From: Prorocentrum cordatum
Lineage: Eukaryota > Sar > Dinophyceae > Prorocentrales > Prorocentraceae
Direction of reading: 5' to 3'
Length of the DNA stretch: 64,000 bases
Assembly: GCA_963575745.1 (NCBI GenBank)
Contig: CAUYUJ010015024.1
Coordinates: forward strand, 284,501-348,500
The translations under genes and the position numbers were made by a program. Position 1 is the first letter of the stretch. Every line of letters starts with the position of its first letter. Below are positions 11,697 through 49,545 of this stretch, one piece after another. A model generated the notes under the pieces. That model worked only from the letters and a program-made list of their open reading frames with translations, was not told the origin of the DNA and did no database searches.

Positions 11697-11735
11697 GAAA
11701 TGAAACACAAGTCTGCCTAAAAACACGTGTATACT

Positions 11736-11761: not shown

Positions 11762-11791
11762 GAAAAGAAACGCAAATCTGTGTAAAGCAAG

Positions 11792-11805
11792 TGTCTGGCC
11801 AGACA
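11792..11805. other. 14-bp perfect palindrome
   Basis: TGTCTGGCCAGACA lies between hairpin copies 2 and 3. As RNA it could serve as a dimerisation-type palindrome, which is speculation. Confidence 0.7.
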
Positions 11806-11810
11806 AAATG

Positions 11811-11828
11811 TCGTGTTGATGAACACGA
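11811..11828 (-). other. Repeated RNA hairpin, copy 3
   Basis: TCGTGTT and AACACGA pair over 7 bp around a CATC loop. Relative to copy 2, one C-G pair has become U-A by change on both sides, a compensatory change. Confidence 0.6.
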
Positions 11829-12035
11829 AAAGAGATGTATAAAAATCTGTTTGGCGACTCCCGTTGGCGTTGCTCCTTAGGAGGCTGCCTCGGTGATCGC
11901 AAAGATATCTATATGTGTGTATGGCCACTTGTGTGAATGATTGAAGTGGCCTAAAGAATATATTAGCCACCGCTCAAGGCGAACTTTGATGAAAGGAAGT
12001 TCTGCTCTTGAGCAGTGGGCCTTGCGGCCGACTCA

Positions 12036-22330: not shown

Positions 22331-22392
22331 CTTCTTTCTTACTCAGGTTTCTGGTAACTAATGCTGGGCGTGACCATGTCGAATCTGGTATG

Positions 22393-22752
22393 TTATCTCT
22401 GTGTGCCGTAGTTGGTCTCACGTGGCATGGTTGGTATTACTACCGACTGGGTGAACTTGCGTATGAGCGGGTTCAAAGTCCCAAAGTCGGTTCCCTCATT
22501 ATCCACAAATACCAAAGCACGTTCTTCTCCATCGTGCTGTTGTGGTAGTTGACGGTAGTATAGTACCGTGGTAATGTCACGTGGCCCACCAGGTAATTTG
22601 GCATACAGTATTTCTTTGTTTGTCACGCCTTTGACATTCTCATCGCGGATGACGTCGCCATTGTCAGTGTCGTATGTAATCCGTCGTTCCACAGTATTCC
22701 ATGTGGGTCCGCCTGATGTAGTAGTACGGAAATTATTGACCTGTTTATCCTG
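22393..22752 (-). pseudogene. Linker between integrase and RT, after in-frame TGA
   Basis: The same frame as the integrase runs on after the TGA at 22753-22755 through NGDVIRDENVKGVTNKEI and PGGPRDITTVLYYRQLP to a TAA at 22393-22395. A different frame (KKEVAAEPRAQEALRK) then leads toward RT. It is part of one former polyprotein. Confidence 0.65.
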
Positions 22753-24872
22753 TCATGTCCACACTCTCAATGCAGCACGATCGCGAATCTCACGAGCTCG
22801 TTTAACGTCGTTGGCGTAATCGATCTCTTTCTTTTGCTGTCCACGAGAAAAAGTTTTCCAATGCTCGGGAAGAACGTGATCAGGACGTGTAGTAGTCTGC
22901 ACACGTGTCTCGCGTCCACGAACCACCATTTTGCCGTCTGGCGTCATTTTTGGAAGCTCATAGAACTGTATCGTGCCTGTCCATGGCTCGCTCAGCTCCC
23001 TGTGGTCGTTGGCGCTAACACCATCCCAAACATCTCGGAAATTACTTTCGCCTTCGAAAGTAGAAGTCGTTTTGAAATCTCGTGTCACGTCGAGTTGGTC
23101 AACAGGTACCGGTATATTCATGACGTCGTCCGTCGGGATGAACAGTTTCTTTCTTGGGGTACGAATGTGTCTGATGACGCAATATCCACGCTGTTCCCAG
23201 CAGTCTGGCTCCGGCGCTGGTGCAGCAACTTCAGAAGCCGATGTCTGGATATCAACAGCGTTATCTTCCGTTGTCATCATAGATGGATCATCCCATTCTT
23301 TAGGGCAAGAAAGTGGAGGATCAGGCATTGGCTTGTCGCCCAAGGGGCGAGAAGTAGAGGCCTTCACCTCGTCGTGTGCCTCCGGGTTGTGATGTCGTAG
23401 GGTACCATCTTTCACGGGGTAGGTGAACTTGCCATCGGGGATGATGATGTCTTTGACTCTGTGCACATGACACAGTTCACCATCAGGATTCTTGGCGTAT
23501 GTAGCCGTGTCCAAAACAAGGTAGTCACCTGACCATCGTCCACCAGAGTGTAAGTGGTATCCCATGAATAACCCTTCCCGAATATTTTCTTTAAACTTTG
23601 CAGTCTCGTTGTTAATCTCGGGGTTGAGGCATTTCCAAAATATCCGAGCACCGAATGGTATGCAGTGCCCAGGAAAGCTTTCGCCAAATCTTATTTCATG
23701 AGCTGTCTTTTCTGCGTGCTCCTCGTTGAGGGCAGCGACGCCCGTGGATGTATGCACAAAGTTGTGTCCACAGCAAAAGGCTTGCATGGCCTCTTTCCAC
23801 CATTCGTGTCCCAGACCAGACATATGTAACACAGCTCTGGTACCAAGAATGACTATTTTGACAACGCGCTCAATCAATCCATTTGTCTGTGGACGATGTG
23901 GCGTACTCGTGTCGTGTCTCCATCCCAGTTGGCGGCAAGCTTTCTGAAGCTCTCCAGAGTTGTCTGTGTAGATATGCTTCACCTCATCGTTCGCGGCGAT
24001 GAACTGTTGAAAGGATGCCTTTGTAGTAGCTGCGTCTTTGTGTAGCGCTGGGTAGGCCATGAAGATGCCAGTATATCTGTCAAGGACAACGAGTGCATAT
24101 TTGTCGCCATGTTTGTCCGCGGCATCGTCTTTGGCCAGTACGATATGGTCGGCAGTTAGAGCCTCACCGAACTTCTTCGGGACAAAAGCCTCGTAGGCGT
24201 TATCCTCTTCGGTGGGGTCTGCCGGTGGATGTGGTTTGTGCTGTCGTCTACACGGGGCATTCTGTGCCATCGTACGAGAGCAGATCTCACAGTCAGGATG
24301 CTTTGGGCTGTGAGTCATGTAATGCATCGGGTCGATCAGTTTCTTTTGTCTGTTGGGTAGAACTCGATCGTTGTCTGGATGCGTTCGTGTGGGTGTCTCT
24401 GTCGGTATGTCGTTGTCTGCTTGAGCTATATCGAGCCCCCCGCATTGTGGAGGAGAACACTGCGTCTGAGACGTAGGCGAGTCGGTGGTTGTGTCCACGT
24501 TGGGCTCGTCTGTTCTTGTGTCGGGAGGTTCTTCGACCGTGGTGGTCCGTGCTCCTCCTCCCTCTCCGACGTGTGGTCTCTTGGGGCAGGTCCCTATGTG
24601 GGGTCGTAGCTCATCTGCAGTGGTTGGTTGCTCTGTAGTTTTGCAGCACCAACAAGTGTCGTTACAGCGGGCGGATGAACGCTTTCGCTGACGACGGCGG
24701 GGTGCTGACGAAGTGCATAAACGTGGTGGTGGTATCCGTGTTAAGTCGTCGAGTCGTAACTCTGGCACTCGATTGTTGACTGGAATCTTATACCATTGGC
24801 CCCCCGGATCCTGAAGCATGTAGCCCAGCTCAGGATCCCAAAGCTGTCGAAAGCCATCAACCTCAATCAATT
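22753..24872 (-). CDS. Copia integrase
   Basis: Joins the element cDNA to host DNA. About 705 codons. The N-terminal zinc-binding HHCC set is visible in HYMTHSPKHPDCEIC (H183, H187, C194, C197). The catalytic triad is D241 (TADHIVLA), D303 (IYTDNSGEL) and E334 (PQTNGLIERVV). An extra Cys-rich patch (CNDTCWCC, near 70) and a Thr/Pro-rich spacer precede it. The C-terminal part carries GYHLHSGGRW and LVLDTATY, expected downstream of copia integrases. The first codon here is TTG in KLIEV: the frame follows the protease by a one-base shift, not by its own start. It ends at a TGA. Confidence 0.9.
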
Positions 24873-25148
24873 TCCAACTGATAGTAATGATGGGCAGTCT
24901 GGTAAAGCAAGGGCTGAACTATGCAGTCCAACCTCGGGTAGCCGTATGTCGTAGTGCTCGTTGACGGTACGATCACCATTTGCAGTTTCCAGAATATGCT
25001 CTTCGCGAATAGATATGCGATCCGACTCGGTCTGCGTAAGTTCATGTTTTCCCTGAATATGATGAGCAGATCCACTGTCAAGAACCCAAGACCTTGTCAA
25101 TGCTGCAGTCGAACGTGGAGTGTCGACTTGCTTTGTCGTTGTTGTCGT
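24867..25148 (-). pseudogene. Copia aspartic protease
   Basis: Cleaves Gag-Pol into mature proteins. The active-site block is SWVLDSGSAHHI (DSG), followed by a beta-strand-rich 70 residues ending CPSLLSVGN. It is in the Gag frame: between Gag and this domain the same frame carries TAA (25278-25280) and TAG (25149-25151). At its end the frame hits TGA, while the homologous continuation KLIEVDGF is in the -1 frame, overlapping at GGAAATTGATT. Whether this is programmed frameshifting or a one-base deletion is open. Confidence 0.8.
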
Positions 25149-25277
25149 CTAGGCAGTCTTTGATGACTGCTTGACAGTGTCGTCATGCTTTCGGATCACA
25201 GTTGGTGTGGCCACCGACTCTTTGTTGTGTCGGTAGTCGGACAGTTCGTCGTACCATAGTTGTGCCTCTTTTTGACA

Positions 25278-28200
25278 TTATCGTAAGGCCTCTGCACTAT
25301 CATCCCACCATTTTTGTGGTAATGGATCTGGTACTTTGACGATGTCACCCTCATTCGGCAGCTCTTTCCATCTGTCCAGTCTGGCTCTGCCAGATATGGT
25401 ATGGAAATAGTAGTCCACGTTGCGTACGTCGAAGCGTATCCGACGACGTATCTTGGTAGATGTCGCTGTGGCCTTAGTGTTGGCCATGAGGGTCTTGTCA
25501 CGGATGACGTAACTGCGGTCTGTACGGCGTGAACGTCTAAAGTTGGCAGGAGAACGTGCTCTGGTGTTGGGTGAACCACGGGACGATCCGCGGCTCGGAT
25601 ACCGCTTGCCACGTCCTTTGTCACTGCCATATGACCTATCACGGCCGCGTGGACTGCCGCGTCCGCCGCCGCGATTGTCTCGTCCTCGGGAGGTAGATCT
25701 CGAAGATCTGTCGTAACGACTTCTCGATTGGCTGCGAGAGTCGTGGGACCTCCTGGATGTCGAACGGGATCGGTCGCATTGGCGTCGGTTGTCACGTCCC
25801 TGTCGTGAATCGCTTGCGTAGCGAACCCCCCCGCGTTGTGAAGACCGTTGGCTTCCTGATCCGCGGGATGGTGATCGGCCACGGCTGTCCTGGCTGGAAG
25901 TCCGTGGTCGACTCGGGCTTCGTTCAGGAGTCTTTGCACCAGGTGCGAGATGAGCGCATTTGCATTTGCCGCCTTTTGTGCACTTGTTCTGTGCGAAATC
26001 CTTGCACTGCGCGACGTGCGGGTAGTTACACTTATCACCTCTGGTACATGTGTTGCGCTTGGCAAAATCGAAGCAGAATGGCCTTGATGCTGGCTTCTTG
26101 TGATTCGCAGGAGTAGACATACTACGGCGGGGGTTGCCACCAGCCGTTGATGTTCTGGAAGATTTGTTGTTCTTCCAATCCCTGGAATATGTATGTAAAG
26201 CCTTGCACCGTTCACCATTGCGGCAATTGCCTTTCTTCCATGCAGCGCACAGGTTGACCTGAGATCGTGGTTCGTGTTCGTACCGTAGCTTGTTTTGATT
26301 CTTCCCCAATTGTTTAATCTCCAGTATGTCCAGGACACGCTGTCGAAGCCAACCGTAGGTACGATTCGGGTCGCTCATCTTCATGCGCTGGTACTCGTAC
26401 ATGTCTTGTTTCATCCATGCATGTCTACGAATCTGTGTGCGAAATAGCGATTCCAATATCTTTGGATCGGGTACTTCTCGGCTTTCCAAGAGTAAGGCGT
26501 CCCAATCGGTAATGAAACGTTGCAAATCTTCGTCTCTCATCCTCAGTTCTGTAAGGCGCTCGAAATCGTGCAGGTCGTCGTCGACGTCTGTCACTTTGTA
26601 GGACTGTAGGATATGCCAGTATATCTGGCGTCCTTTGAGCATGCGTCCTGCTTTGTGCTCTCTGGTCTCGATGAGCCTGATTTGGTAGCGTAAGTCTGAG
26701 GATAAGATGTCGCTCAGAGCGGTTGCGAGTTTGCAATCGATGCTCTCAAAGTCTCCACTGTCTTGTAAATCCTCGAATGTACATTCGGGCTGTTCTGCCA
26801 CGCATAGGAAGGCGTATGCTTTGGATGGTCGCCCTGAGGCGGCCCCGAAGTTCTTTCGCACTCTTTGCTGCCACTTCAGCAGCTGCGTGATCTTAGGCAA
26901 GACAGGTACTCGGACGGTGTCTGACTCCTTGATAGGCGTCGTTGTATGGACCGACACCGCGGACACTGGTTGTGAGGGTATCGGTGCACCGTCGATGGTT
27001 GGTTCTGTGCGCACAGGAGACACATGACGTGTCTGTGCAGAAGCTGCCGCTGAGGCTGCTCCTGGAGATGTACGTCGTTGTTGTCCTGCTGAAGCTTGTG
27101 GTGCTTCGGCGGACGCTGCCGTCGGCCTGTGCAGGTCGGCTGCAGGTCGAAGGTGAATGTTGGTGTCGTTAGTGTGGTCGATCAGCTGATTGGTCCAGCT
27201 CGTCATGTCTTCTTGTATTTGACCCACCTTTTGGCGTGTATACTCATCAGTATCCCGAGACCGTTGGGAATACCGATCAAGTCGATGCTCGCATGCTCGG
27301 AGACGGGCGCTTTGTGCCTCCACCTCGCTTTCCAGACGTGCGAGATAACTCTCAACACGTACCTTCTCAGTATCTCTTTCATGAATAACCTGGGAGAGCT
27401 CTAACTGCGTGTGGTCCGCCGCCTTCTCAACCTCCTGCAACCTGTCAGTGAGGCGGGCGAAATCGTAAACCGTGGGAGGAGAATCCAGCTGGCCAGTCTG
27501 GGCTCGTCCGACACGCAACTCTGCCAGGGCGTCCTGTACACCAGGAAAACGCTGCTCTATGTCAGAGATCCGGTTAGCGAGTGGCTGCACGACAGCGTTG
27601 GTCGCATCAAGCCTTTGAGTGATGACTCTCTCAGTACGCTGCAACATGTCGATCAGGTTCGACGAGTTTGTGTGTGCTTCGGTACGAAGCGTCGCCGTAG
27701 TGTGGTCTAGGTAAGATCGAAGATCATTGATCTGAGACTGAACGTCGCCGAGGTCTGTGGCCTCGGTTGGAGTTGGTCGGTTACGGAGCTGGTCGTGGAT
27801 CTCATCATGTAAAATCCTGACCGCAGAAATACCTGTGTCGCGTACGATCACAAGTTGTTGCTCCATCTGCGCGAGATAGTTGCGCAGGTTCTCGACCATC
27901 GCCGTTCGTTCACCTGAGTGTGACACCTCGCGATCAACCTGGTGCTGCAGTTCTCCTATGATGCGTCGATCTTCGGCGATCCTGGAATCGATGATCCCTA
28001 AGGCGCCGTCAAGATCGCGGCGTATGGCTGCAGTATCAGTGGCGTTCGTCTGAACGCTCTGTAGTAGCCCAGAGTATTGGCTGGACACAAAGGTTTCAAC
28101 CTGGTCTCTGAGCTCAGCTATGTCACCTGCGGCGGACGTCTCCGCCAGCTGGTCGTCTGAGATGGAGAGGTGGGGGGCGTCAGCTTCCCTGTGTCCCCTG

Positions 28201-28349
28201 TCGCGGGGAGTGCATGGCCTCTGAGAGGCAGTGCGCGGGCTCGACCTGCTTTCGCCGCATGGGCCTGGGGCTCCACGGCGGTTGCGCGCGGACGAGCTGC
28301 GACTCGGACCATGTGTGTGTGGTGTCTCATCGATGATACCTCGGGGCAC
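25278..28349 (-). CDS. Gag-like protein with three CCCH zinc fingers and RS-rich tail
   Basis: Structural protein expected to form the particle and bind element RNA. About 1,023 codons. The N-terminal half is heptad-like and probably coiled coil (about residues 70-400). A Ser/Ala/Pro linker and a capsid-like helical region (about 490-680: KITQLLKWQQRVRKNFG, DLHDFERLTELRMRDEDLQ) follow. Then come three fingers of the form C-x7/8-C-x5-C-x3-H (about 700-810), for example CFDFAKRNTCTRGDKCNYPH. A long Arg/Ser/Gly tail follows. Copia Gag normally carries a CCHC knuckle; none is seen. The true start is probably upstream at 28807 in another frame. It ends with TAA, after which the same frame continues to the protease. 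Confidence 0.8.
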   Translation of the reverse strand: MPRGIIDETPHTHGPSRSSSARNRRGAPGPCGESRSSPRTASQRPCTPRDRGHREADAPHLSISDDQLAETSAAGDIAELRDQVETFVSSQYSGLLQSVQTNATDTAAIRRDLDGALGIIDSRIAEDRRIIGELQHQVDREVSHSGERTAMVENLRNYLAQMEQQLVIVRDTGISAVRILHDEIHDQLRNRPTPTEATDLGDVQSQINDLRSYLDHTTATLRTEAHTNSSNLIDMLQRTERVITQRLDATNAVVQPLANRISDIEQRFPGVQDALAELRVGRAQTGQLDSPPTVYDFARLTDRLQEVEKAADHTQLELSQVIHERDTEKVRVESYLARLESEVEAQSARLRACEHRLDRYSQRSRDTDEYTRQKVGQIQEDMTSWTNQLIDHTNDTNIHLRPAADLHRPTAASAEAPQASAGQQRRTSPGAASAAASAQTRHVSPVRTEPTIDGAPIPSQPVSAVSVHTTTPIKESDTVRVPVLPKITQLLKWQQRVRKNFGAASGRPSKAYAFLCVAEQPECTFEDLQDSGDFESIDCKLATALSDILSSDLRYQIRLIETREHKAGRMLKGRQIYWHILQSYKVTDVDDDLHDFERLTELRMRDEDLQRFITDWDALLLESREVPDPKILESLFRTQIRRHAWMKQDMYEYQRMKMSDPNRTYGWLRQRVLDILEIKQLGKNQNKLRYEHEPRSQVNLCAAWKKGNCRNGERCKALHTYSRDWKNNKSSRTSTAGGNPRRSMSTPANHKKPASRPFCFDFAKRNTCTRGDKCNYPHVAQCKDFAQNKCTKGGKCKCAHLAPGAKTPERSPSRPRTSSQDSRGRSPSRGSGSQRSSQRGGVRYASDSRQGRDNRRQCDRSRSTSRRSHDSRSQSRSRYDRSSRSTSRGRDNRGGGRGSPRGRDRSYGSDKGRGKRYPSRGSSRGSPNTRARSPANFRRSRRTDRSYVIRDKTLMANTKATATSTKIRRRIRFDVRNVDYYFHTISGRARLDRWKELPNEGDIVKVPDPLPQKWWDDSAEALR

Positions 28350-28807
28350 CGCGTCTGTGGCTGTGCCGACGCTGGTCTACTGAGTTCCTCGAAGGTAGCT
28401 ACGTGCTCCGCCACAGGGACGGTCGCAGGGCTGGGGGTCCCAGCACCTGAGGTCCATCGGCGGTTAGCGCGAAAGCGCCCTGGAGTATCGAGGCCGGCAA
28501 GGCTTTCGCCTGGCGCGGTTGGGATTGCTCCCGACGGGGAAGGGGAGGGAGGATCGAAGGTCGGCGTGTGAAACTCCTCCCTTCCTGTTCCTACTCCTTC
28601 TCCTGTCCCCCCGCGGGCGGCGCTGCGGCGAAGTTCAGCAGCTAGACGCGCCTCGGGTCCTCGGGAGCTGGGGGGGGGGGTATCGGGGACACCAACACAG
28701 TCCGCACTAATGCTCTCCAACTCGTCACCGAGCCGTCGCACCGTGGGAGAGCTTGGACGCGAAGCCCCAATGGAACCCTTACGGCGCATGCGCCGAAGCG
28801 GCTCCAT
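28340..28807 (-). pseudogene. Probable N-terminal segment of Gag in another frame
   Basis: A frame starting MEPLRRMRRKGSIG at 28807 reads through a proline/serine-rich stretch and overlaps the start of the main Gag frame. The overlap translates similar DNA in two frames (SSMRHHTHMVRV against the Gag frame's start). I infer a one-base shift near 28340. Confidence 0.45.
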
Positions 28808-28857
28808 TAGGCTCGCATGCAAGGTCACCGCGGTCGAGTCGGTGAGGGTGAGCTTTA

Positions 28858-28871
28858 AAGGGCTGATAACC
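28858..28871 (-). other. Candidate primer-binding site
   Basis: GGTTATCAGCCCTT follows the 5' LTR directly on the element strand. It resembles the initiator-methionine tRNA type of copia primer site (TGGTATCAGAGC) with one inserted T, so the assignment is weak. Confidence 0.35.
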
Positions 28872-29067
28872 TGTGTATGGGGTTGAAGTACAAGAGTACA
28901 GAACCCCTGATCCGTTGGTAGAGAGATGGAGGGATAGATGGATATCTTTCCCTCCCAGGCGATCAAGGTACGATCGCCCCAACTCAGCACCTGAGCCCAA
29001 ACGGCCAGGTGCGGGAGGGGTAAGGATAAGGGGTATATATGAGGGTATTACACGGGTTCCTTCCACA
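28872..29067 (-). repeat. 5' LTR (196 bp)
   Basis: On the element strand it runs from TGTGGAAGGAACCCG to ACCCCATACACA, so it keeps TG...CA ends. It is 190/196 identical to the 3' LTR by my base count. Confidence 0.95.
29034..29040 (-). promoter_or_regulatory. TATA-like block in 5' LTR
   Basis: An alternating TATATAT lies about 30 bp inside the LTR on the element strand and is conserved in both LTRs. Dinoflagellate promoters rarely use a classical TATA box, so a promoter role is only possible. Confidence 0.25.
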
Positions 29068-29072
29068 CATCC
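29068..29072. repeat. Target-site duplication, right copy (CATCC)
   Basis: Exact repeat of 11085-11089 directly outside the 5' LTR. Confidence 0.9.
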
Positions 29073-29138
29073 TGCACTCGTTACGGGGAAGGCCGAGGAT
29101 AAGGCAGGCTGGAAAGGGGCCAGCCGTAGCGACTGGGC

Positions 29139-29419
29139 AGAGGAGGAGGAGGAGGAGGAGGAGGAGGAGGAGGACGAGGAGGAGGAGGAGGAGGAGGAGG
29201 AGGAGGAGGAGGAGCAGAGGGAGGAGGAGGAAGAGGAGGAGGAGGAGGAGGAGGAGGAAGAGGAGGAGGAGGAGGGGGAGGAGGAGGAGGAGGAGGAGGA
29301 TCAGGAGGAGGAGCAGGAGGAGGAGGAGGAGGGGAGGAGGAGGAGGAGGAGGGAGGAGGAGGAGGAGGAGGGGGAGGGGGGGGAGGGGGAGGAGGGGAGG
29401 ATGATGATGATGATGATGA
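29139..29419. repeat. (GGA)n microsatellite plus (ATG)n, left flank of the spliced-leader element
   Basis: About 260 bp of GAG/GGA repeats with a few interruptions ends in six ATG units (29401-29419). The next base belongs to the 3' end of the element read on the minus strand. Poly-Glu/Arg/Pro frames here are translations of the repeat. Confidence 0.95.
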
Positions 29420-30221
29420 AGCGCCTTGAAAGGTCGGTCCTCCCATAACACAAACCTGAGAAGCCACCAATACGCCAAATGCGTAAGGTAGAGAGAGAAA
29501 GAAGGCGAAGAAGCAGGAAAGAATAGAAGCGGAGAATAGGTAAAGCCCAACCCAGGATTGAAACCCAGGATACTGAAAGAAAACATAAATGAAAGACTGT
29601 CCAAGATCCCAAATAAATCCCACCACTAGGTTCCTCTTGTGTTGAATGAAGATAGAGAAACAGAAGAAAAGGGATGCCCAAATTTGACTAACAAGATCTT
29701 GAGTGACAATTGGGTCCCAACTTTGAAAGCACATGGTCCCAAGGTCTAAAGTAAGAGGTGAAGAAAACTTTCATTAAGTCCCATGAAACCCATTTAACAT
29801 GAGTAGTGATCAAGGCTGATATATATGACTAAAAGAGAATCTGAATGATAAACTGAACGACCCAAGCACGCAATGAAACCAGAAGATACGGAGGCACGCA
29901 AGATGAACGGTCAAAGCTGAATGAGATCCCAACCATGAGAACCCACGCCAGACCTGTCGAGGAATATGTAATATGGATGAATTCAAACTAATATGGAGAA
30001 CGCAAGGTGGCTGGAATTGTTTATAACCTTTTGTATTTGCAAACCACCATCGTAGGCGAGCCGCCGACGTTTGAACTGAAATGTCTGAGGACCCTATCCC
30101 CAGGACATAAGAAATACATGCAAGAAAGACTGAGACAGACTGAGAGCCCTCCAAGAAGCCGCAGGCCCACGCACCACGGACACCAGAAGATTCCAGTCTA
30201 AGGAAGTCCCAGGATTGCTCT
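29420..30221 (-). other. 3' untranslated region of the spliced-leader element
   Basis: About 800 bp without a convincing coding frame. On the element strand it has a long pyrimidine-rich stretch (about 29490-29540) and then a TCA-repeat tail. Open frames are hydrophobic or low-complexity and overlap the GGA tract. Confidence 0.5.
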
Positions 30222-30789
30222 TCAGCCATACCTCCACCGCCACTTCTCCACGAAGAAATCTCCATCCCACCAGTAATCGGACAAGTACCACACAACCGGG
30301 TGAGGCCAGCCCGAATCGGGATCGATCCACGTGTCAAAGTACTCCGTTTTCCACACTTTCGCGTAGACTTCGTCTACTTCGCAGTAGTTCCACATTCCGC
30401 CCGAGCCATGGGACCACTTGAGACGCTTCTTGGCAGCAAGCATGACTGGAAGGCAGCGTTTAGCCATCCACTGGAGTTGAAAGTTTCCCAGCCGTACCAG
30501 ACAGGAGCTCCAGAAAGGATTTGAGGCAAAACGGCTACTGATCCGCAACAAATTCTGTCCAAGGAACTCTACGAACCCTCTCATCGGGACCCCGAACGTT
30601 GACATACAGACCATGATAGCCGCTGTCCCGGCAAGCTTTGAAGTATGGGATTTTGCACCAGTCATAAACCGTGTGATGTAACATACCGAAAGCTTGAGCC
30701 CGAGACTGCAGGAGCCGACAGGGGTCAAGTGGAGAGAAGGGGCCCATCCCTCCAAAGCCTAAGGGAGGTGAACAGACGCCGAGGCCCAA
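30222..30789 (-). pseudogene. ORF5 of the spliced-leader element, one frameshift
   Basis: Two frames join near 30535-30560. The first (from about 30690) reads CKIPYFKACRDSGYHGLYV and GPDERVRRVPWTEFVADQ. The second gives FWSSCLVRLGNFQLQW, MLAAKKRLKWSHGSGG and a Trp/Asp-rich end WYLSDYWWDGDFFVEKWRW. I recognise no family. Protein-like composition and absence of repeats argue for a real, decayed gene of about 170-180 codons. Confidence 0.4.
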
Positions 30790-31009: not shown

Positions 31010-32029
31010 CTAGTATTGAAGCCTGTTCTCTGAGGCCGCAATTAGGTAAGAGACCCAGACCTCTGAAGATTCTGTAACATTGAATTTGTGCACTTGCATT
31101 CCGTGGAACATTGCCACGGCGAACTTCCGAGTATAGGGCGCACATGGGCCACGAAAAAAGCGACGGTCTTTCCCAATCCTAGCAAAGGACCCATGTTGAT
31201 CGACAAACGTCAAAATTGAACGAATGGAGCAGATGATGGGAGAGATCCCCTGAATTACGTTCCAGAACCGATCTGGGTCAACATACCCCGCTCCCAGCCC
31301 AAGCTCCATCAGATCTCCAATAAGCTCAAGCCATCGAGAAGTGTCGGGTTCCCTTTTCCACCGATCGCGGACCATCCTCTGTACATCGGTGACCCGACCA
31401 GCGATTAAGCGAAGCTCCTCCATGGATTTAGACGAGGCCCTGGTAGGCTGTCGTTTTTGAAGATACCTGGCCATTTGACCCCATATATTCCACCAAACTG
31501 TGTAAATGAAATTCCCAGGGTCCGACCAGCGATTGTCGTAGAACACTGCGCCTTTGTATGACATCGTCTTGATCTGTACAAAAGACATAGAGCGCACTGC
31601 GATTCCCACGATCCCAATAAGGTTCTTGCATGCCTCACTTGAGAAGAATTCCTCAAAGAGATTCCATAGCTGCCTGAGAGGTATATCGAATTCACGCCCC
31701 TTCTCATACATGTGGAGTGTGACGCATTTCTGTGGATTGTATGAACCCAAATTTACAGGAACGATCTCGGAACTTTCAATTGCCAGTGCACGTGAGCAGA
31801 CGGATGCCCATGCCTCGAAGACACAACACTGGAGAGATTTTGAATTCCATGGCCTGACGACCCTCTGAGGGGCAAGCATGAGAGTGTGTTCCCAGATAAC
31901 TTGAGAAGAGGTTGAAGCAAAACGAGGTAAGGCGGATTGAACCAAAATGACTACAGAAAAGCACCAGGACACCAAGACAATCGACAGATGGAGATCCAGG
32001 AGATGGGGAGACAGGGGTGTGAGGTACAC
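31010..32029 (-). CDS. ORF4 of the spliced-leader element, unknown
   Basis: The 339-codon open frame is in a different frame from ORF1-3. The N-terminus is hydrophobic (LLDLHLSIVLVSWCFSVVILVQ, about residues 10-31; possible membrane anchor or signal, or non-coding 5' extension). The rest is soluble-looking with natural composition: FEEFFSSEACKNLIGIVG, WRSDPGN-like region near 170, SKSMEELRLIAGRVTDVQ, RWLELIGDLMELGLGAGYV. No catalytic motif is obvious. It lies downstream of RT on the same strand, so it is probably element cargo. Confidence 0.5.
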   Translation of the reverse strand: MYLTPLSPHLLDLHLSIVLVSWCFSVVILVQSALPRFASTSSQVIWEHTLMLAPQRVVRPWNSKSLQCCVFEAWASVCSRALAIESSEIVPVNLGSYNPQKCVTLHMYEKGREFDIPLRQLWNLFEEFFSSEACKNLIGIVGIAVRSMSFVQIKTMSYKGAVFYDNRWSDPGNFIYTVWWNIWGQMARYLQKRQPTRASSKSMEELRLIAGRVTDVQRMVRDRWKREPDTSRWLELIGDLMELGLGAGYVDPDRFWNVIQGISPIICSIRSILTFVDQHGSFARIGKDRRFFRGPCAPYTRKFAVAMFHGMQVHKFNVTESSEVWVSYLIAASENRLQY

Positions 32030-32050
32030 TTTATCAGGGATCGGACGGCA

Positions 32051-32590
32051 GTCATCGTCCTGGCCAACGTAGTGAGATTAACAATCCCAGGCCAAACCCA
32101 TTTTGAACTGAAGTAAAGAAGCAAACTAAGCGCAAAGCAACCCCAAGTTGAAACTTGTCACGTCGAGGCTGTGGGAAAAGAGCAAGAACCGACCCCACTA
32201 CTTTGGCCCCGACAATCGGATTGAGAAGAGCATGATGTAATCCCAGCTCATGAGAAATGACCTGAAGGCCCAATGAAATGAAGCACTTGTAATCCCAGAT
32301 ATTCCCAGATTGAACCAAGAGTCACCGTCCTGGCCAACGTAGTGAGATTAACAATCCCAGGCCAGACCCATTTAGAACTGAAGTGTAGAATCAAACTAAG
32401 CGCAAAGCAATCCCAAGTTGAAACTTGTCACGTCGAGGCTGTGGGCAAAGAGCAAGAATCGACCCCACTACTTTGGCCCCGACAATCGAATTGAGGAGAA
32501 CATGATGTAATCCCAGCCCCAGAGAAATGACCTGAGTGCTCAATGAAATGAAGCACTTGTAATCCCAGATATTCCCAGATTGAACCAAGA
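32051..32590 (-). repeat. 270-bp tandem duplication inside the element
   Basis: 32051-32320 and 32321-32590 are near-identical (about 90% or more by eye), each starting at GTCCTGGCCAACGTAGTGAG and ending TTCCCAGATTGAACCAAGA. A third fragment follows at about 32596-32632. It is non-coding, between ORF3 and ORF4. Confidence 0.9.
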
Positions 32591-32649: not shown

Positions 32650-33906
32650 TCACATCAGGAAGCGAGGTTTGCAAAGCAAATGGCACCTTACATTGGCTCC
32701 GTTACTCCCAGACTCCACCGTGATAAGATCTCCCACATCTTCAAACATATCCTTAATGAAGAGGAGGGCCACAATGCAGCTGCCAGCAAAGATCTGCGAT
32801 TTGTCATGGAGCCTCTCCTTCTTTGGGCAGACCTCTGGGCCAATAAAGGCCTCTTTGGTGTAAAAGCGCGCATTGAACAAATGAACGTCCTTGAAACGAA
32901 ATGTTTGGAGCCCAAAGTGCCAAAGAATCTTCGTGACATCCCTGGTAGTGAGGTATCCGTGCTCTCCCAAGACTGGAATACTGTCTGAAACCAAGGGACC
33001 TTGATTATCAATGATGAAAGGCGTCAGCTCACGAACTGTGATGATTTGGAAATGTTCTCCAACCTTGGCCTTGAAGGTATTCAAACCCGTGAGCTGAGGT
33101 ACGAAAACCATAATGTAACGCCTTGAGCTCGTGTGGTCTGTGCCGCCCTTCGGAGCGAATATTGGGCAGCCTGAGTGGTCGTATTCCAACTGTGACTTGA
33201 ACACAGGTGGGCCCAACTTGCTGATCCAGGGCTTCTTGTCCTGTTCCCAGCTTTTGGGAGCTGGTTGCGACCTCCTGTCAGGCGAGTCGACCTCCGCTTC
33301 AGATCCTGAGGTAGAGCTCCTGGTGTCTGAGCCCCCCGAAGACGGGGGGGAGTGCCTGACAGGCGCTTCCTCTCGGTAGTCCTGTGTCTCTGGCAAGGCC
33401 TCGTCCGGATCTGGCTTGGAAACCGACGCACCACCCTGCAATTGTTTCTTGGACCCACCTGAGAACTGCATCTTCCTGGCAATCGGTGATCGGCTCCGAG
33501 ACAAGGAGTCACCCCTGTGCACAGGTGCTGGAGGCGGGGTAGGGAGCACCCTGGACTCGCGAGAGTCAGCACCTGACGATGCTTTGGCCTTGAGGCCCTG
33601 ATTCCTGATCTCGACCGTCCTCGCTTGGTCCTCCTTTTTCTGCTCGAGCTTCTTCTGCAGCTTGGCTTTCTTCTCATTCGTGGTAAGCACGGGCTTCGGC
33701 TCCATCTTATCAAAACGCTTCCGAGCCCAACAATCCAAGGCGTGGCGATCGAATCCAAAGAAAAGAGGAACTGTCGGCTGAATCTGATTCCCAACCAAAT
33801 CCAGATCCTGAGAGTAACAGGTGTCCGTGGTGAAAAGAAAGGTAGCCCCGCTGGGCGCAGTACGGTAACAAATGTGAGTCTGGATCACGCCAGACAAAGC
33901 CAATGG
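32650..33906 (-). CDS. ORF3 of the spliced-leader element, unknown
   Basis: About 417 codons in the same frame as ORF2, separated from it by a single TAG (33907-33909). There is no ATG at the junction (CCA TTG follows). Residues about 70-105 are a Lys/Glu/Gln-rich helix (EKKAKLQKKLEQKKEDQAR). Residues 105-240 are Ser/Pro-rich and disordered (SLSRSRSPIARK, SSGGSDTRSSTSGSE). Residues about 255-417 form a folded-looking domain (RRYIMVFVPQLTGLNTFKAK, TRDVTKILWHFGLQTFRFKD, SCIVALLFIKDMFEDVGDLI). No family recognised. It may be made by readthrough of the RT stop. Confidence 0.55.
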   Translation of the reverse strand, partial: PLALSGVIQTHICYRTAPSGATFLFTTDTCYSQDLDLVGNQIQPTVPLFFGFDRHALDCWARKRFDKMEPKPVLTTNEKKAKLQKKLEQKKEDQARTVEIRNQGLKAKASSGADSRESRVLPTPPPAPVHRGDSLSRSRSPIARKMQFSGGSKKQLQGGASVSKPDPDEALPETQDYREEAPVRHSPPSSGGSDTRSSTSGSEAEVDSPDRRSQPAPKSWEQDKKPWISKLGPPVFKSQLEYDHSGCPIFAPKGGTDHTSSRRYIMVFVPQLTGLNTFKAKVGEHFQIITVRELTPFIIDNQGPLVSDSIPVLGEHGYLTTRDVTKILWHFGLQTFRFKDVHLFNARFYTKEAFIGPEVCPKKERLHDKSQIFAGSCIVALLFIKDMFEDVGDLITVESGSNGANVRCHLLCKPRFLM

Positions 33907-36858
33907 CTACTGAAGGCGAAGGTGAAGCGGTTGCCGAACCCAATCAAGCATTTCTTGAGCAAGACCCAAACGAAACTTTTTGTCCCGGGAGCCCTGAGGG
34001 GAGAATAAGGTGGTCCAGGCATCCTTGTCATACCTGAAAACATATCCCCTATGCGAGCGAGAGAAGGTACGGCTGCCCCCAGAGTTATCAAAGGAGCGAT
34101 TCTGAATGACCCAATGCTTGCAATATTGAAACAGCCTCGACGAAAAATCTTCTGGATGTCTTTGCATGTGTGAAACCCAACTAATAGCTGAATCCAAATG
34201 AAAAATAGCCCAAGAAACATCTTTGTATCCCTTGGTTTTACGATTTCTGCGTAAACTAAACTGTTCGGGAGATTCCCCAGGGAGCCTTTTGAGTTTCAAC
34301 ATGATCCTGATACATTGATTTTGAGCCTTGGTAATCAAATCCGCCGTCGTCTTACAAGGGACCCAGGCAGCACCTCTGGAGCGGATAATCCCCCCCGCCA
34401 TACAGTTAAGTTTTGAGAGACGTTTTGACATGGGGATCTGCTCGTTGATCAAGAACCTACTGTTAGCCCAAAAGGCTTTGTTAATCTGTGAAATACCCTG
34501 CTTGACATCTTCGTGACAGGATCCAGTGGCAGAGAGAATCGGACCCAACACCTTAGCCTCCGGTACAACAGACCAAGTTTTCCCAAAGGGATCGGACCAA
34601 TTGTATCCTTGAAAGAAATAGGGGTAGGCCGGAAGGATTTCCCGATCGTCTTTGAGTTTGAGCCGATGTTCATTCCAGAGCTCCGACTCTACCAGTGCAG
34701 TCAGAGTTGCAAGGTCCTGTTCCGAGGACGCCACCACGAAGATATTATCTGACCAGCTGAGAAGGGCAATCCTGAAATCGAAGCCCAACTGCTCACAACG
34801 GATAGAGATTCCCAAAGAAGAATGGGTGATTTTCTCCAGGGTGGAGGCGAAGCAATCTTCTACGGAAACGCGCGCCAGTATGCATGCAGTCCCAGCTCCC
34901 TGCATCAACCCACGGTCTCTCTGGATAATCCCAGTGTTTGAGTCCAAAAGAGAGATGGAGACTCGAGGGTTCCTATGCAATCTGATGCAGCCAACTGCTA
35001 AGAAAAGAGGGACTCCCCGTCCCAGTAGACTCCGCAGGACTAATCCATAACGAATCTGATCGTGGTGAGCTTTGATGTCAGTAATCCCAACCATTCCTTT
35101 GTTAAAATGATCTCGGCCGTATTCTAAAATGTGATAGACACTGGTATGAAGTTCTTGTAATTGTCCACCTTTGCTGAGCCCAAAAATAAGACCTTTGAGA
35201 CCTTTTGAATCAGTGTATGAATCCAAAACTGGCAGAATGGCCCTTGCCACATATGCGTGCCCGATCTTGGCAATTGCTGGCTGGGGAATGACAACTCTGG
35301 TTTGAGAGGGGGTTCCAAAACCCTTGATCTTGTTACCCAGGTGGCCCCCGAATGTGACATCATTCCAAAATTCGGGATCGCCTAAGCAGGCCTGTATACA
35401 CCCCGTGAGCCTCTGGGACCATCCCGAGGCTTTTACTACCGCCGTACAGGCGAACTCTGTGTCGATCTTACGGGGTGCCTTGATGTTGTCCAGCGCGTCT
35501 TCCAGCAGGGAAGGAATGATGGGGTCGTTGTAGAAGTTGAAGAAACCCAAAGAGCGAAGCCAGGCGAAGTCCTCTTGCCGCTCCGATTCTGAGAGTCCCC
35601 ACCTCTCGCTGTATTCTTCAGCCACCAGTTTGGTACAGCGGTCCACTTCAAAAATCTTGACTTGATCTACACAGAAACCCAAAATGGGTAGGAGTGTCTT
35701 GCGGGAGGCCCAGACCTGTTTTCCTTGAGAGGCGTTGAGCGCAACCTGAGCCAAATCGCGTTGAAGTTTAGTTATTTTGAGAGCTTTCAAGAGGAGCTGA
35801 CCCAATGAGACCCTCGTGGCTTCGTTAAGTTCGGAGTTGAACCGTGTCCTGAGACTCTTGACCCAAAATGGCTCTTCGGCAAATCTCCTAAAACTCCTTG
35901 GGAGAGCCTGAGTCGCTTCATAAACCTGGCCCAACATGTTTTCCCAGAAATCAAAGGAGAGGGTGAGGTCCCTTGGGTCATGATACCTGACCGCACATGA
36001 ATCGGGCTGTTCTTCGTCATTTAAACGAATAAGTTCCGATGATTCGGGAAACAGACCTTGGGCGATCTTCCTAACCTCCAAAATGTTTGTAGGAGTCCAC
36101 ATGAGAGGTCTCCTCTTACGCATCTGCTGGTGAAAGGCCAGCACATCACAGCCAACAAGAGCATGGTCCCCTGGGACGCCCGCCCAGCGGGCGAAACAAT
36201 CAAAAGTGAGATCACTCCTGGCGAGAGCTATGTGATCGATCGTGCTGTTGGCCTGAGAGAGCGCCTGATCACCATCAGGCTTCCTAGTGAATTGCATGGA
36301 GGTCTCTTGGAACCTGAGAGGACACCAACGGAGATTGAGGCATGAACAAGCTTCACTGAATGATCGGAATTTCGGATCTCCGTTACCTTGATCGGCATTC
36401 ATGTCCCCCAACCAAGAAAGAGTAGACCCCACGGGGCGGGATCGACCGAGTTGGATGGCACAGTTGAGAGAATCATGGAAAAAATCGCGGGCAAGATGAG
36501 AGAAGAGAAAAAATCTGGCATGATGGTGGCAACCATCGAGACAGTCGGGACGAAGATCAACACGGATAGATCTCCAATCGCAGACAATGTCTTTCACACG
36601 TTTTCTCAGAGATTTGTGCACAAGCACGCCCATGGCCCTACACCCAGGGCCAGAGTGATGGCGGTAGTAAGCGTGGCCATTGAAAACAGGGCGTAGTAGC
36701 CCATCGTTTTGAAGACAGCCCTTAAAATCCGCCTCTAAGATACAAATTAAGCCCCAGCACTTCAGCTCGAGCAAATCTAGGTTGGCTTGCATTTGAGTCT
36801 CGTCGGCCCATTTACCCTGCACATTGAGTGCACATACGAGACCCCTCACGTGAGCATC
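33907..36858 (-). CDS. ORF2: endonuclease-reverse transcriptase
   Basis: About 980 codons. The endonuclease (residues 1-240) shows CALNVQG, ILEAD (E39), WLGDMNAD (148-153), STIDHIALARSD (202-213) and GDHALVG (227-233), the EEP-type nuclease of LINEs. The RT (about 510-780) has motif A GITDIKAHHD (D591, D597), motif B LMQGAGTACILAR (648-660) and motif C LLSWSDNIFVVAS, where SDN (700-702) stands for the usual xDD, so the second aspartate is asparagine. The C-terminal region includes MSKRLSKLNCMAGGII and KAQNQCIRIMLKLKRLPGE. The frame continues from ORF1 after a TGA (36859-36861). The first start in frame is GTG at 36849. Otherwise uninterrupted. Confidence 0.85.
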   Translation of the reverse strand, partial: DAHVRGLVCALNVQGKWADETQMQANLDLLELKCWGLICILEADFKGCLQNDGLLRPVFNGHAYYRHHSGPGCRAMGVLVHKSLRKRVKDIVCDWRSIRVDLRPDCLDGCHHHARFFLFSHLARDFFHDSLNCAIQLGRSRPVGSTLSWLGDMNADQGNGDPKFRSFSEACSCLNLRWCPLRFQETSMQFTRKPDGDQALSQANSTIDHIALARSDLTFDCFARWAGVPGDHALVGCDVLAFHQQMRKRRPLMWTPTNILEVRKIAQGLFPESSELIRLNDEEQPDSCAVRYHDPRDLTLSFDFWENMLGQVYEATQALPRSFRRFAEEPFWVKSLRTRFNSELNEATRVSLGQLLLKALKITKLQRDLAQVALNASQGKQVWASRKTLLPILGFCVDQVKIFEVDRCTKLVAEEYSERWGLSESERQEDFAWLRSLGFFNFYNDPIIPSLLEDALDNIKAPRKIDTEFACTAVVKASGWSQRLTGCIQACLGDPEFWNDVTFGGHLGNKIKGFGTPSQTRVVIPQPAIAKIGHAYVARAILPVLDSYTDSKGLKGLIFGLSKGGQLQELHTSVYHILEYGRDHFNKGMVGITDIKAHHDQIRYGLVLRSLLGRGVPLFLAVGCIRLHRNPRVSISLLDSNTGIIQRDRGLMQGAGTACILARVSVEDCFASTLEKITHSSLGISIRCEQLGFDFRIALLSWSDNIFVVASSEQDLATLTALVESELWNEHRLKLKDDREILPAYPYFFQGYNWSDPFGKTWSVVPEAKVLGPILSATGSCHEDVKQGISQINKAFWANSRFLINEQIPMSKRLSKLNCMAGGIIRSRGAAWVPCKTTADLITKAQNQCIRIMLKLKRLPGESPEQFSLRRNRKTKGYKDVSWAIFHLDSAISWVSHMQRHPEDFSSRLFQYCKHWVIQNRSFDNSGGSRTFSRSHRGYVFRYDKDAWTTLFSPQGSRDKKFRLGLAQEMLDWVRQPLHLRLQ

Positions 36859-37998
36859 TCAAAGAGATAGTGCTTCGTCGATTGTGTCTTTGAGCGTCTT
36901 ACGGAGCGCTTCGTCGGGAATCTCCTTGAGTGACCCGTGCCACTGAAATTCCCCATCTCTGATAGCACCTATCTGACGGTCCAAGACGAAAGTTTTTCGA
37001 GTCCGAGAGCAAACCACGTAACTGTCCGTGCGATCTCCCATTGCCCTTTCCAGGGCTTCTGATACGGTCTTGAACAATTTTGCTGGGCCACGCTCCTCCT
37101 TCGTACTAATCTGGCCACACCAGATCGTATGTTCCAAGTGCCCAGGGATCTTAAGATCACGAATCGCAGCTGCCGCTTGAAGTCCCACTGCAATCGAACT
37201 CCATTTAATCTCCACACAACTCCCATACCCAAATGGTGCAACAATATGCGTGGGCTGGGGAACATCCGCCCGGCGAAGGACAGCCCGTGCCTTCTCCAGG
37301 GCCTCCTGCTTCTTGAGATTCCAGCCCAGGTTGGTGAGAATGAAGATGTCCCTATCTGCCCTTGGGGTGCTAGCCCACGGCGGACCCTTTTTCCTCGACG
37401 GACCCTGGCTCGACTGACTTTCTAACTGTTTGGCTGCCATTTCCGCGCGCAGAGACTTCTGCTCCAGCTCAACGGCAAGAATCCTTTCGTTGAAGGCTTT
37501 CTGCACCTCGGTTTCACCCGCTTCAAGGTTGGCAAGCTTTACTTCATGGTCATTGATCAGAGTGACGGCCACTGAAAATTCCTGAGCCATCGCCTTTTGA
37601 GTTCCCAACACATCGAATTGTAACGAATCAATACGATCTTTGATAGGAGCGATCTTTTTGTCTAGGAGAGACTCGAGTTGGGCAAGAAACCCGTCGGCAC
37701 CGGTGGCGGTCGAGGCAGCCCCCGATGGAATCGAACCATTTTCTCCCAAACCAGTACCCTTAGCAGCTCCCTTGGCCGCCAAGGTTCTCATAGCTTTCGA
37801 GGCTTCTTGCTGATTTTCTTTGTCGTCGTCTACCATCCGAGCTTCGTCCCTCAGTCTTTTCTGCTTATCGATGTCCAATGATAAGAGCTTTTGCATGGTT
37901 TCTCCAATCTGCAATGCCGGCATGGCCAAAAGGATGAAGCAAGAGCCAGTTTCCCAAAATTTGAGATAGAAATGAAGCGCTGAATTGACAAAACCCAA
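36859..37998 (-). CDS. ORF1 of the spliced-leader element, RNA-binding/coiled-coil type
   Basis: The frame is 379 codons. The start may be the first ATG (37998) or MPALQIGETM about 25 codons later. Residues about 25-70 are charged. A coiled-coil-like segment at about 105-195 follows (LESLLDKKIAPIKDRIDSLQ, ERILAVELEQKSLRAEM). The C-terminal domain (about 215-379: DIFILTNLGWNLKKQEALEK, AVGLQAAAAIRDLKIPGH, DSYVVCSRTRKTFVLDRQIG) has the size and position of the RNA-binding domain in LINE ORF1 proteins. The layout matches that family; the exact fold is inference. The TGA at its end lies in frame with ORF2. Confidence 0.65.
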   Translation of the reverse strand: MGFVNSALHFYLKFWETGSCFILLAMPALQIGETMQKLLSLDIDKQKRLRDEARMVDDDKENQQEASKAMRTLAAKGAAKGTGLGENGSIPSGAASTATGADGFLAQLESLLDKKIAPIKDRIDSLQFDVLGTQKAMAQEFSVAVTLINDHEVKLANLEAGETEVQKAFNERILAVELEQKSLRAEMAAKQLESQSSQGPSRKKGPPWASTPRADRDIFILTNLGWNLKKQEALEKARAVLRRADVPQPTHIVAPFGYGSCVEIKWSSIAVGLQAAAAIRDLKIPGHLEHTIWCGQISTKEERGPAKLFKTVSEALERAMGDRTDSYVVCSRTRKTFVLDRQIGAIRDGEFQWHGSLKEIPDEALRKTLKDTIDEALSL

Positions 37999-38087
37999 TA
38001 AGATTCACGAATTCACCAAATTGAGGCGATATCCCACTGATTGAACCCAATAACCGATCCCCAAAGGCTCAAGGAACAGTTGCGGTA

Positions 38088-38130
38088 CCGAAATGGCTCG
38101 TGGTAATGAATGAGCCAAACCTTGAGCCAA
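38088..38130 (-). repeat. Relics of older spliced leaders
   Basis: Directly after the full leader, on the minus strand, comes TTGGCTCAAG (38121-38130), then GTTTGGCTCA (38111-38120), then the weaker GAGCCATTTCGG (38088-38099). The first two match the 3' part of DinoSL. The third matches its middle with one change. Such stacked relics form when a trans-spliced mRNA is copied into the genome, transcribed and trans-spliced again. Confidence 0.75.
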
Positions 38131-38152
38131 CTTGAGCCAAAATGGCTACGGA
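38131..38152 (-). other. Complete dinoflagellate spliced leader (22 nt)
   Basis: On the minus strand the sequence starts TCCGTAGCCATTTTGGC and ends TCAAG, identical to the canonical 22-nt DinoSL including an allowed first base. There is no donor GT after it and no SL RNA body; instead it is followed by leader relics and the 5' UTR of ORF1, so it is a retroposed mRNA end, not an SL RNA gene. Confidence 0.95.
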
Positions 38153-38335
38153 GGGGGAGGAGGAGGAGGAGGAGGAGGAGGAGGAGGAGGAGGAGGAGGG
38201 GGAGCGGGAGGAGGAGGAGGAGGAGGAGGAGGAGGACGACGAGGAGGGGGAGGAGGAGGAGGAGGAGGAGGAGGAGGAGGAGGAGGAGGAGGGGGAGGAG
38301 GAGGAGGAGGAGAGAGGAGGGGGAGGAGAGGAGAA
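38153..38335. repeat. (GGA)n microsatellite, right flank of the spliced-leader element
   Basis: About 180 bp of GGA/GAG repeats with some GGGGA interruptions begins at the first base outside the leader. Same repeat as on the other side of the element. Confidence 0.95.
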
Positions 38336-39770
38336 GGCCAGGAAGCAACGGAAAATCGCTACGAGCATGCACAACCATGCAGGAGGCGCGGGGAGGCAGC
38401 AAAAGCAACAGAAGGCAAGCCTTGCACGACGGGGGCGGGGCGGGCGGGGGGCGGAAGGAACGAGGGTCTAAATCAATAGTGTAGTCGACCCCATACTCGG
38501 GAGCCACAGGAACGGCAGCTCGAGGGGCCAGTCCCACTGCCCCCACACCAGGAGAAGGGCACGGGAGCAGGGCGGGGAGCGGAGGGAGGACCAGACAGGC
38601 GAGAGTGCGAGGGGCAACGATCGCGTTCGTATTCATTGTTTTGCCTGTCGGCCTCGCCACGCGGAGGCGCTCTGCCCGCATGGGCGAGCGCATCGTCGCC
38701 CAAAATCTGCGCAATCACGCCGTGCGCAGCATCGCTGCGCGGGGGCAATCCGCCCATGCAAGACACGCGCAACAAACATGCGCAACGGGCGTTCCGCGCC
38801 GCCGTAAGCATAGTGTTGCAATGCCGCAGCGACCACGTTTTTACTATTGCGACCCCCTCTGATCAGCGCGATCGCGGGTCGCGGCCAACGGGCGCCGCCG
38901 CACGCGATCGCCACTCGGCCTCGCGAAAACACGTTGAGGGGATCTCCGCGGGGAAAGCGCCGCAAATGGCCAGGCTGCAGCCTTTCGAGAAAGCACTGCG
39001 CCATGCCAAACACGCTCGCCAACGATCGCCGCGACGCAGAAACAACCGACCAAAAACATACTTCTTTAAAGCGTCCAGAACTTCCGGTTGCGGTGGTTTC
39101 TTGCGCGGCCATGGGATTCCACCAGCTCGCGCCGCCCCCGCCCACCCCGAGCCCACCCCGGTACGCAGACACACGCGCTCATTCCGCACATTGTGGGGAG
39201 AAGAATTGCGGCGCGAAGCTAAATGCGCCTGTTGCATTAGAAATCCACGGGGTGTTCAAGACAACATCGAGACGATTCAACAGGACCCCAAGACGGCCCA
39301 AGACGATTCCAAAATACCCACTAAGAATGCATATGTTACGAAAGAATGCGATGCATACCTAAAGTAGCCATATCGGCATACCATGAGAAACGGACGAGGG
39401 AATCAGAGGTAGTGGCGCAAACGCATGTAGCATGGGCGAAAGGCCTGCGGCATTGGGGGGGAATGTCACTCAAATCTTGCGCGAAAAAAGAAACGTGGCC
39501 CAGTGACACTGAGAATGGTCGCGCGGCGCCGAGCGCAGGTGGGTCGAGTGGATTAGAGGTGAAAGGGGAAAGAATTTGACCGAATAGACAAAAAACGTAA
39601 GAGACTTGATACGGCTAGCGAGAGATAAGGTAGATCACGGCGTTGAATGGTTTCGCGCGCGTGTACCAGGTGCCGTGCGCGATTTCAACGACGAAATGAG
39701 AGCGATGCGCGACTGTTTCTGAAGATCGCATCCGCGAGATTTTGTTGGTGGCTGTGTTGGATTAAATTTG
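38336..39770. other. No recognised gene; GC-rich then AT-richer spacer
   Basis: Overlapping open frames occur on both strands at 38470-39370, but none has a recognisable domain or coherent start. 39240-39330 resembles the degenerate GGCCATCTTGGG repeats on the opposite strand. 39370-39770 is ordinary spacer. Confidence 0.5.
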
Positions 39771-49026: not shown

Positions 49027-49545
49027 TCATAGTCTGACTATCTGCTTCGTCAGAGTCGGCCGCGCCTGTGTTCGGTTGCTCTCTGGGTGACTCGAGTCGA
49101 AGAGCTTCGCTGCAGTGCGCCACTTGCCAAGATCGCCGCTCATCAAGTGGAGCTCGCGCCTGAGGCCGTTCGGCCAGTTCAAGCAAATGCGCTGGCGAGT
49201 CCGAATATGATTCCAACGCGGGCTCGCATGGGGCGAGTAGCCGTGCCACTTCTTGGTGGGCCCCCGTGGGCGACGCGGTTCCAAGCAGAGGAAGCACTCG
49301 CATGGTGCCTCGACCTTGGCAGCAGCGGCCTGCTCGCTGGCCGAACTCCTCCTGCGAACCGCCGGTTGGGTTGGCGGGGGCGGCATCTGGGAGCCATCCG
49401 CCTCGTCTCCAGAGACGGGCATGGTTGCTGAGAGACGTTCAGTCAACTGAAGGGATGCGCACCTCGCCCTGGGCCTCAGGGTGCATCGAGAAAACGGTAC
49501 TGAGCCAGAATGGATACGGAAGCGAACGGGGAATGATAAGTCCAA
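49027..49545 (-). pseudogene. Unknown coding unit, N-terminal part
   Basis: A frame containing MPVSGDEADGSQMPPPPTQP, a Ser/Ala stretch, CECFLCLEPR (two CxxC-like pairs) and DLGKWRTAAKLFDSSHPESN precedes the 48995 frame on the same strand, with a frame change near 49050-49100. It probably starts at or near the Met at about 49425. No family recognised. Confidence 0.4.

Follow-up and report, generated by a model that had tools for sequence, protein, structure and literature searches.

Mobility of a LINE requires that its 5′ end and promoter be kept, and in trypanosomatids the non-LTR elements SLACS and CZAR insert into spliced leader (SL) RNA genes. The elements described here are likewise non-LTR and tied to a spliced leader, yet the leader is carried on the ends of copies that are inserted elsewhere. 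In dinoflagellates, retrogenes with relics of the spliced leader (DinoSL), attributed to mRNA recycling (Slamovits and Keeling 2008, via PMC3229502, PMC6050394 and PMC12014239), also start with an SL followed by relics cut between GTAG and CC, which the accessible parts of these papers interpret as repeated trans-splicing and retroposition. The carriers there are host genes, whereas in Prorocentrum cordatum the carrier is a transposon family with ORF1 and ORF2, whose copies sit in microsatellites and, for most of the close ones, use a shorter relic unit, GTTTGGCTCAAG. Six SL-bearing transposable elements of Schistosoma mansoni were suggested to be trans-spliced and retro-transcribed, but the authors warn of possible assembly chimaeras, and neither stacks nor copy series are described in the accessible text (PMC5832876). 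The SymbioLINE-Dnmt elements of Symbiodinium are also LINEs of a dinoflagellate in which one ORF precedes the reverse transcriptase (RT)-bearing ORF, but the paper contains neither ‘leader’ nor ‘spliced’, and its accessible text describes no 5′ leader (PMC5890265). Non-LTR elements that target microsatellites likewise insert into such repeats, but, as far as the accessible text goes, with restriction-like endonucleases (PMC4640811), whereas here relatives match Exo_endo_phos and the leader itself provides the TCC of the junction.

The locus lies in a 64-kb stretch of P. cordatum DNA, here called the window. Judged from the sequences of the locus and its copies, it very probably belongs to a multi-copy LINE-like (non-LTR) family that moves as DinoSL trans-spliced mRNA, with the host leader renewing its 5′ end. 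The kinds involved, LINE and DinoSL retroposition, are known, and the leader-headed family is not a new class. In the accessible parts of the literature searched (PMC6050394, PMC3229502, PMC12014239, PMC10235124, PMC8045281, PMC11453091, PMC7245778, PMC3942190, PMC7789003, PMC10666404, PMC4558846, PMC5832876, PMC5890265 and PMC6053224; subscription papers and preprints fall outside this scope), neither LINE copies headed by DinoSL nor a preference for (TCC)n was found described. What is new relative to that literature is the use of microsatellite targets with leader microhomology as a regularity.

The insertion is an 8.75-kb unit with DinoSL at its 5′ end and a (TCA)n tail at its 3′ end. A (TCC)n tract adjoins the leader on its 5′ side and reappears behind the (TCA)n tail, beyond the 3′ end, thus the unit splits a microsatellite. 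Along the element strand the features are as follows.

38150–38337, no strand: 5′-side microsatellite, (GGA)n on plus and (TCC)n on the element strand, 89% alike to 29142–29332
38131–38152, minus: complete DinoSL, the element's 5′ terminus; its first three bases, TCC, are equally assignable to the microsatellite
38121–38130, minus: leader relic TTGGCTCAAG, directly behind the DinoSL
38111–38120, minus: leader relic GTTTGGCTCA, the usual unit of the family stacks
38088–38099, minus: candidate older relic GAGCCATTTCGG, within the conserved body
36859–37923, minus: ORF1, 354 aa from its first ATG, no Pfam match
33907–36858, minus: ORF2 frame, 983 aa, first ATG at 36792, weak RT similarity at residues 592–811
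32650–33705, minus: ORF3, 351 aa, no family above cut-off
32050–32590, minus: 270-bp tandem duplication, 93%
31936–31956, minus: internal DinoSL-like site, 17/21, ~55 bases before an ATG, in five of six fetched copies
31010–31879, minus: ORF4, 289 aa, no Pfam match
30520–30540, minus: internal DinoSL-like site, 17/21, in four of six fetched windows
29401–29460, minus: conserved 3′ end (...GACCGACCTTTCAAGGCGC), of which 29401–29420 is the (TCA)n tail
29137–29400, no strand: 3′-side microsatellite, (GGA)n on plus and (TCC)n on the element strand

ORF1, ORF2 and ORF3 are consecutive in one reading frame (32650–38004), separated by single stop codons, and G+C is 0.50 in the element versus 0.68 upstream. 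Self-comparison of the element for LTRs gave only the 270-bp duplication. Eight other copies were inspected for their 3′ ends near the position expected from the window, and seven of them have the window's 3′ end with the (TCA)n tail; the 3′ end of L116 comes ~0.4 kb early, and for the C16733 copy (L117–L119; L037/L119) none of three pieces matched, the 3′ part being absent at the expected place. A constant 3′ end with a tail, a variable 5′ end and the absence of LTRs, by which LINEs are recognized, are thereby found together. Seven copies were compared for target-site duplications. One (L039/L129) has a clean, flush 12-bp duplication next to a truncated leader; a non-flush 14-bp repeat is present in L040, and the remaining five either sit within repeats or have no such duplication. 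In L060/L061, one copy is inserted behind the (TCA)n tail of another.

Elsewhere in the window, a Ty1/copia-like element (minus strand, 11088–29068) is next on the element's 3′ side; its ends are a 199-bp repeat pair (11088–11286 and 28870–29068; 97%), and its RVT_2 and rve matches are slightly under the Pfam cut-offs. Tandem arrays occupy 3094–5592, 51412–53651 and 55344–61507 (units of ~101, 89/178 and 129 bases, respectively), and Rfam gave no match in the 64 kb.

The complete 22-nt DinoSL (TCCGTAGCCATTTTGGCTCAAG) is the sole place in the window at ≤3 mismatches. No such match arose in 100 shuffles of the window, and a chance origin is ruled out by these shuffles together with permuted-leader scans. 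The first-pass annotation had described a full leader with stacked relics on the element strand, which is borne out, GAGCCATTTCGG being the weakest of the relics; the leader does lie upstream of ORF1, yet not at the ~90 bp given there, as the first ATG of ORF1 (37923) is ~207 bases behind it. At the position of GAGCCATTTCGG, 19 of 21 close copies show AAGCCATTCCGG, which resembles an old boundary between CAAG and CCATTTTGG. The 10-mer TTGGCTCAAG has exact copies in the window only at 38121–38130 and within the leader; no canonical acceptor explains this relic directly, and a 10-nt slippage duplication could be its alternative origin.

A gapped scan of the element found four sense sites scoring ≥28 (the terminus, 35857, 31937 and 30521) and no antisense site, while 300 permutations of the leader averaged 0.003. 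The sites at 31937 and 30521 are present in both subfamilies (as to the misses, the L115 piece ends short of the site and L117/L118 belong to the unmatched copy), and we read them as putative remains of old fusions with leader-bearing transcripts. The site at 35857–35877 encodes EEPFWVK, kept as KEPFWVK in P0001, a protein 89% identical to ORF2, and is probably a coincidence; a further site at 33898 scores at chance level. Outside the element, the minus strand has another DinoSL-like site at 49499–49519, which differs from the leader at 4 of 21 bases.

The coding capacity of ORF2 was compared with known families. ORF2 had no Pfam match, whereas P0001 matched RVT_1 at E 0.19; hhalign of ORF2 against RT gave a probability of 1.5% when six RT sequences were used and of 52% when twelve were, with motifs A–C lined up. 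Neither Pfam nor the EN profile from other SL-headed loci revealed an endonuclease (EN; hhalign EN 0.5%), and GDMNAD, IDHI and GDHALV appear APE-like by eye only. Motif C, also assigned by eye, is SDN in ORF2 and P0001 and CADD in L012, L014, L020 and L031; the RT of the window's family may thus be inactive, and the family may be mobilized in trans by elements such as these four. An AlphaFold model of ORF2 was uninformative (mean pLDDT 30.8). The protein collection yielded one relative when searched with ORF2 or with ORF2 plus P0001; neither protein was found in IMG/VR, nor A1 in GTDB contigs.

To compare 5′ ends across copies, the P. cordatum assembly (4,128,499,153 bases; 21,875 contigs) was searched with the element's first 653 bases. 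With 40 of 190 candidate places scored, 41 matches at 40 places were obtained, window included: 22 places are 97–100% identical and match from query position 1–23, and 18 are 92–95% identical and match only from ~position 108. The 5′ ends of the 39 other places were fetched; L063 is masked in front, which leaves 39 readable starts including that of the window, with those of L052, L059 and L069 assigned by eye. All 39 fall in DinoSL or its relics (16 exact SLs, 2 SLs with one error and 21 truncated inside the SL or relics), and among these 39, from the 40 of 190 candidates scored, there is no shared non-leader start. Since L032 is the window locus again (251 of 251 flank bases identical) and L060/L061 and L067/L070 are near-identical pairs, 36 starts are distinct; the full leader heads 18 of the 39 and 16 of the 36. 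The first-pass annotation had suggested looking for the leader at other copies' 5′ ends, and regarded its reading as refuted if copies shared a conserved non-leader start or if the leader was that of a neighbouring host gene. Neither is seen among the 39 readable starts: the leader forms the end of a unit that recurs at many places with a conserved 3′ end of its own, which rules out the leader of an adjacent host gene.

The microsatellite in front of the leader recurs at other loci. Among the first 68 SL loci of the genome listing, 46 have (TCC)n or (GGA)n in the 60 bases before the SL, compared with 3.7% of random 60-mers from 20 longer loci (P value=2e-49); the repeat is (TCC)n in 32, (GGA)n in 14 and another repeat in 1, with none in 21. 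In the same 68 loci the base preceding CCGTAG is T in 62, which suggests that T is what P. cordatum has at the leader's variable first position. Genome-wide, the junctions TCCTCC+TCCG..., CCTCCT+TCCG... and CTCCTC+TCCG... occur 1993, 411 and 221 times, respectively, so that 76% are in register with the leader's TCC where one third is expected; a new copy at an in-register junction regains a pyrimidine tract plus AG. For 12 loci with a tract in front, the next downstream tract has the same orientation in 9, the opposite one in 1 and is absent in 2, although in L016, L018, L023 and L026 the next tract is perhaps inside the element; in L012, L013, L016, L018, L020 and L024 a tract of the same orientation lies shortly past the last long ORF. 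The best account of the tracts and their register is insertion into microsatellites by way of TCC microhomology. The tracts could instead reflect survival or selection of spliceable copies, or repeat expansion after insertion. The excess of TCC over GGA (P value=0.011) leaves room for such selection, and flanks with CT ≥0.8 are commoner in full-SL than in truncated family copies (11 of 18 versus 5 of 21; P value=0.025); however, 14 of the 46 tracts are GGA, the tracts of the window and several other loci resume beyond the element with orientation unchanged, and the TCC register indicates joining chemistry, for which reasons we hold survival or expansion to be unlikely as the main cause, while leaving it some weight beside preferred insertion.

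A doublet of an SL and a 15-nt relic is, in the accessible text of PMC3229502, the published mark of re-splicing into a genomic SL. SL plus CCATTTTGGCTCAAG was found in 7 family copies, and genome-wide CCATTTTGGCTCAAG stands behind 1202 of the 14,218 exact SLs, with none in reversed controls. A complete SL or the CCATTTTGGCTCAAG relic at the 5′ end, which defines a DinoSL-tagged retroposed sequence, is present in both the window and the family. These doublets support the proposal of the first-pass annotation that the lineage would have moved through trans-spliced mRNA more than once. Alternatively, the SL-headed copies might be by-products of masters that keep a promoter and a non-leader 5′ end, their SL-capped mRNAs being retroposed in trans like host mRNAs. 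Any mRNA in the cell may bear an SL, the SDN of motif C makes mobilization in trans by other LINEs plausible, and the family's 5′ ends are known from the scored 40 of 190 candidates; yet there is no non-leader start in the 39 readable copies, and the doublets require SL-headed genomic copies to be transcribed, spliced and retroposed again, which renders by-products improbable.

Leader renewal by trans-splicing is also suggested by the stacks, which differ among copies 97–100% alike. The number of CTCA units per copy, leader counted, ranges from 1 to 12, and L058 has a full leader without a CTCA relic. Within L032–L070, 47 of 52 GTTT(T)GGCTC units stand directly after AG, and the 15 exact outer SLs are followed by CCATTT in 6, GTTTGG in 2, GCGCCT in 2, which are duplicates of each other, and by five types that occur once each, including GTTTTG and the window's TTGGCT. 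A perfect leader outside decayed units, joined at varying inner positions, fits trans-splicing better than slippage, which may nevertheless lengthen arrays such as L036 and L051 and be the source of the window's TTGGCTCAAG. That stacks grew mainly by slippage of reverse transcriptase or replication on short repeats after a single ancient SL gain is hardly credible, for although the long near-identical 12-mer arrays (L036, L051) and the window's perfect 10-nt duplication speak for it, 16 copies combine a perfect 21-base SL as outermost unit with decayed inner units, and outer SLs are joined to varied inner units that mostly follow AG. As a separate observation, in L093, L096, L024 and L109 the exact leader is followed by a second sequence starting TCCGTAGC or TCCATAGC, as if the whole older leader, not the usual 15-nt relic, were retained.

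That trans-splicing rebuilds the element's 5′ end, as first proposed from the window alone, is thus a reading to which both the 39 starts and the copy-specific stacks lend support. A genomic copy would be transcribed from somewhere upstream, and the host would splice a fresh leader onto an AG within the old leader stack, removing the unrelated 5′ sequence. Splicing between GTAG and CC inside a genomic SL would leave a 15-nt relic, and splicing at the AG that ends a relic would only replace the front. The leader-capped RNA would presumably be copied into a new site by a LINE-type EN–RT, its own or one acting in trans; that site would often be a tract of (TCC)n/(GGA)n, and in at least one case lay behind a (TCA)n tail, with the cDNA end often joined to the target via TCC microhomology. 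Behind (TCC)n, the pyrimidine tract plus GTAG would restore a splice acceptor that the following round could use. At the sequence level, support comes from copy-specific stacks, doublets, the split microsatellite, the register, the 3′ end with its tail and one flush target-site duplication. Beyond this family, we lean towards a broader model in which LINEs of P. cordatum would lack a 5′ end of their own and trans-splicing would make one from read-through transcripts, while insertion into TCC microsatellites via the leader's TCC would rebuild the pyrimidine tract and AG; leader, acceptor and target would then form a self-renewing 5′ module of several LINE families, whose machinery would likely make DinoSL-tagged retrogenes. 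If true, a 5′ end that host trans-splicing provides and restores would be a different solution to LINE mobility, and the leader–microsatellite junction makes target choice testable.

To survey leaders outside the family, the 28 SL places at the top of the genome listing were taken, a non-random draw; 20 of them have ~9.3 kb downstream. RT and/or EN follows on the same strand in 13 of the 20 (L012, L013, L014, L016, L017, L018, L020, L021, L022, L026, L027, L030 and L031), with none on the opposite strand in these 20; L028, whose match is 8.3 kb away, was left out. Pfam, run on the ORFs of 12 loci, matched RT, EN or RNase H in 8 at E ≤0.01, with RVT_1 over the curated cut-off in L012, L014, L020 and L031 and no match in L016, L021, L024 and L026; the remaining RT/EN assignments use profiles built from the same loci and are partly circular. 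Moreover, 15 of 55 other SL loci have a head in common with one of the 13. Putative leader-headed LINEs are thus common among the sampled SL loci, and genomic DinoSLs should not all be taken for retrogenes. Leader-headed LINEs are at the same time a concrete candidate machinery for leader-tagged retrogenes, which make up 22–23% of genes in two Symbiodinium genomes according to the accessible text of PMC6050394.

The DinoSL pattern was also seen in one virus-like contig and two MAG contigs among IMG/VR and GTDB contigs, none of which helped to trace the family. In the AT-rich virus-like contig (L001; IMGVR_UViG_3300045993_001077, 1936–2913), two exact DinoSLs lie 147 bases apart and a G+C-richer ORF of 254 aa follows just behind the inner one, an arrangement that looks like the copy of a dinoflagellate mRNA within the contig. 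A Dehalococcoidia MAG contig (L002; CAJXDJ010000191.1, 1–52) starts with (CAT)n and has an exact DinoSL directly after; it is probably an assembly chimaera with dinoflagellate DNA, with a microsatellite again before the leader.
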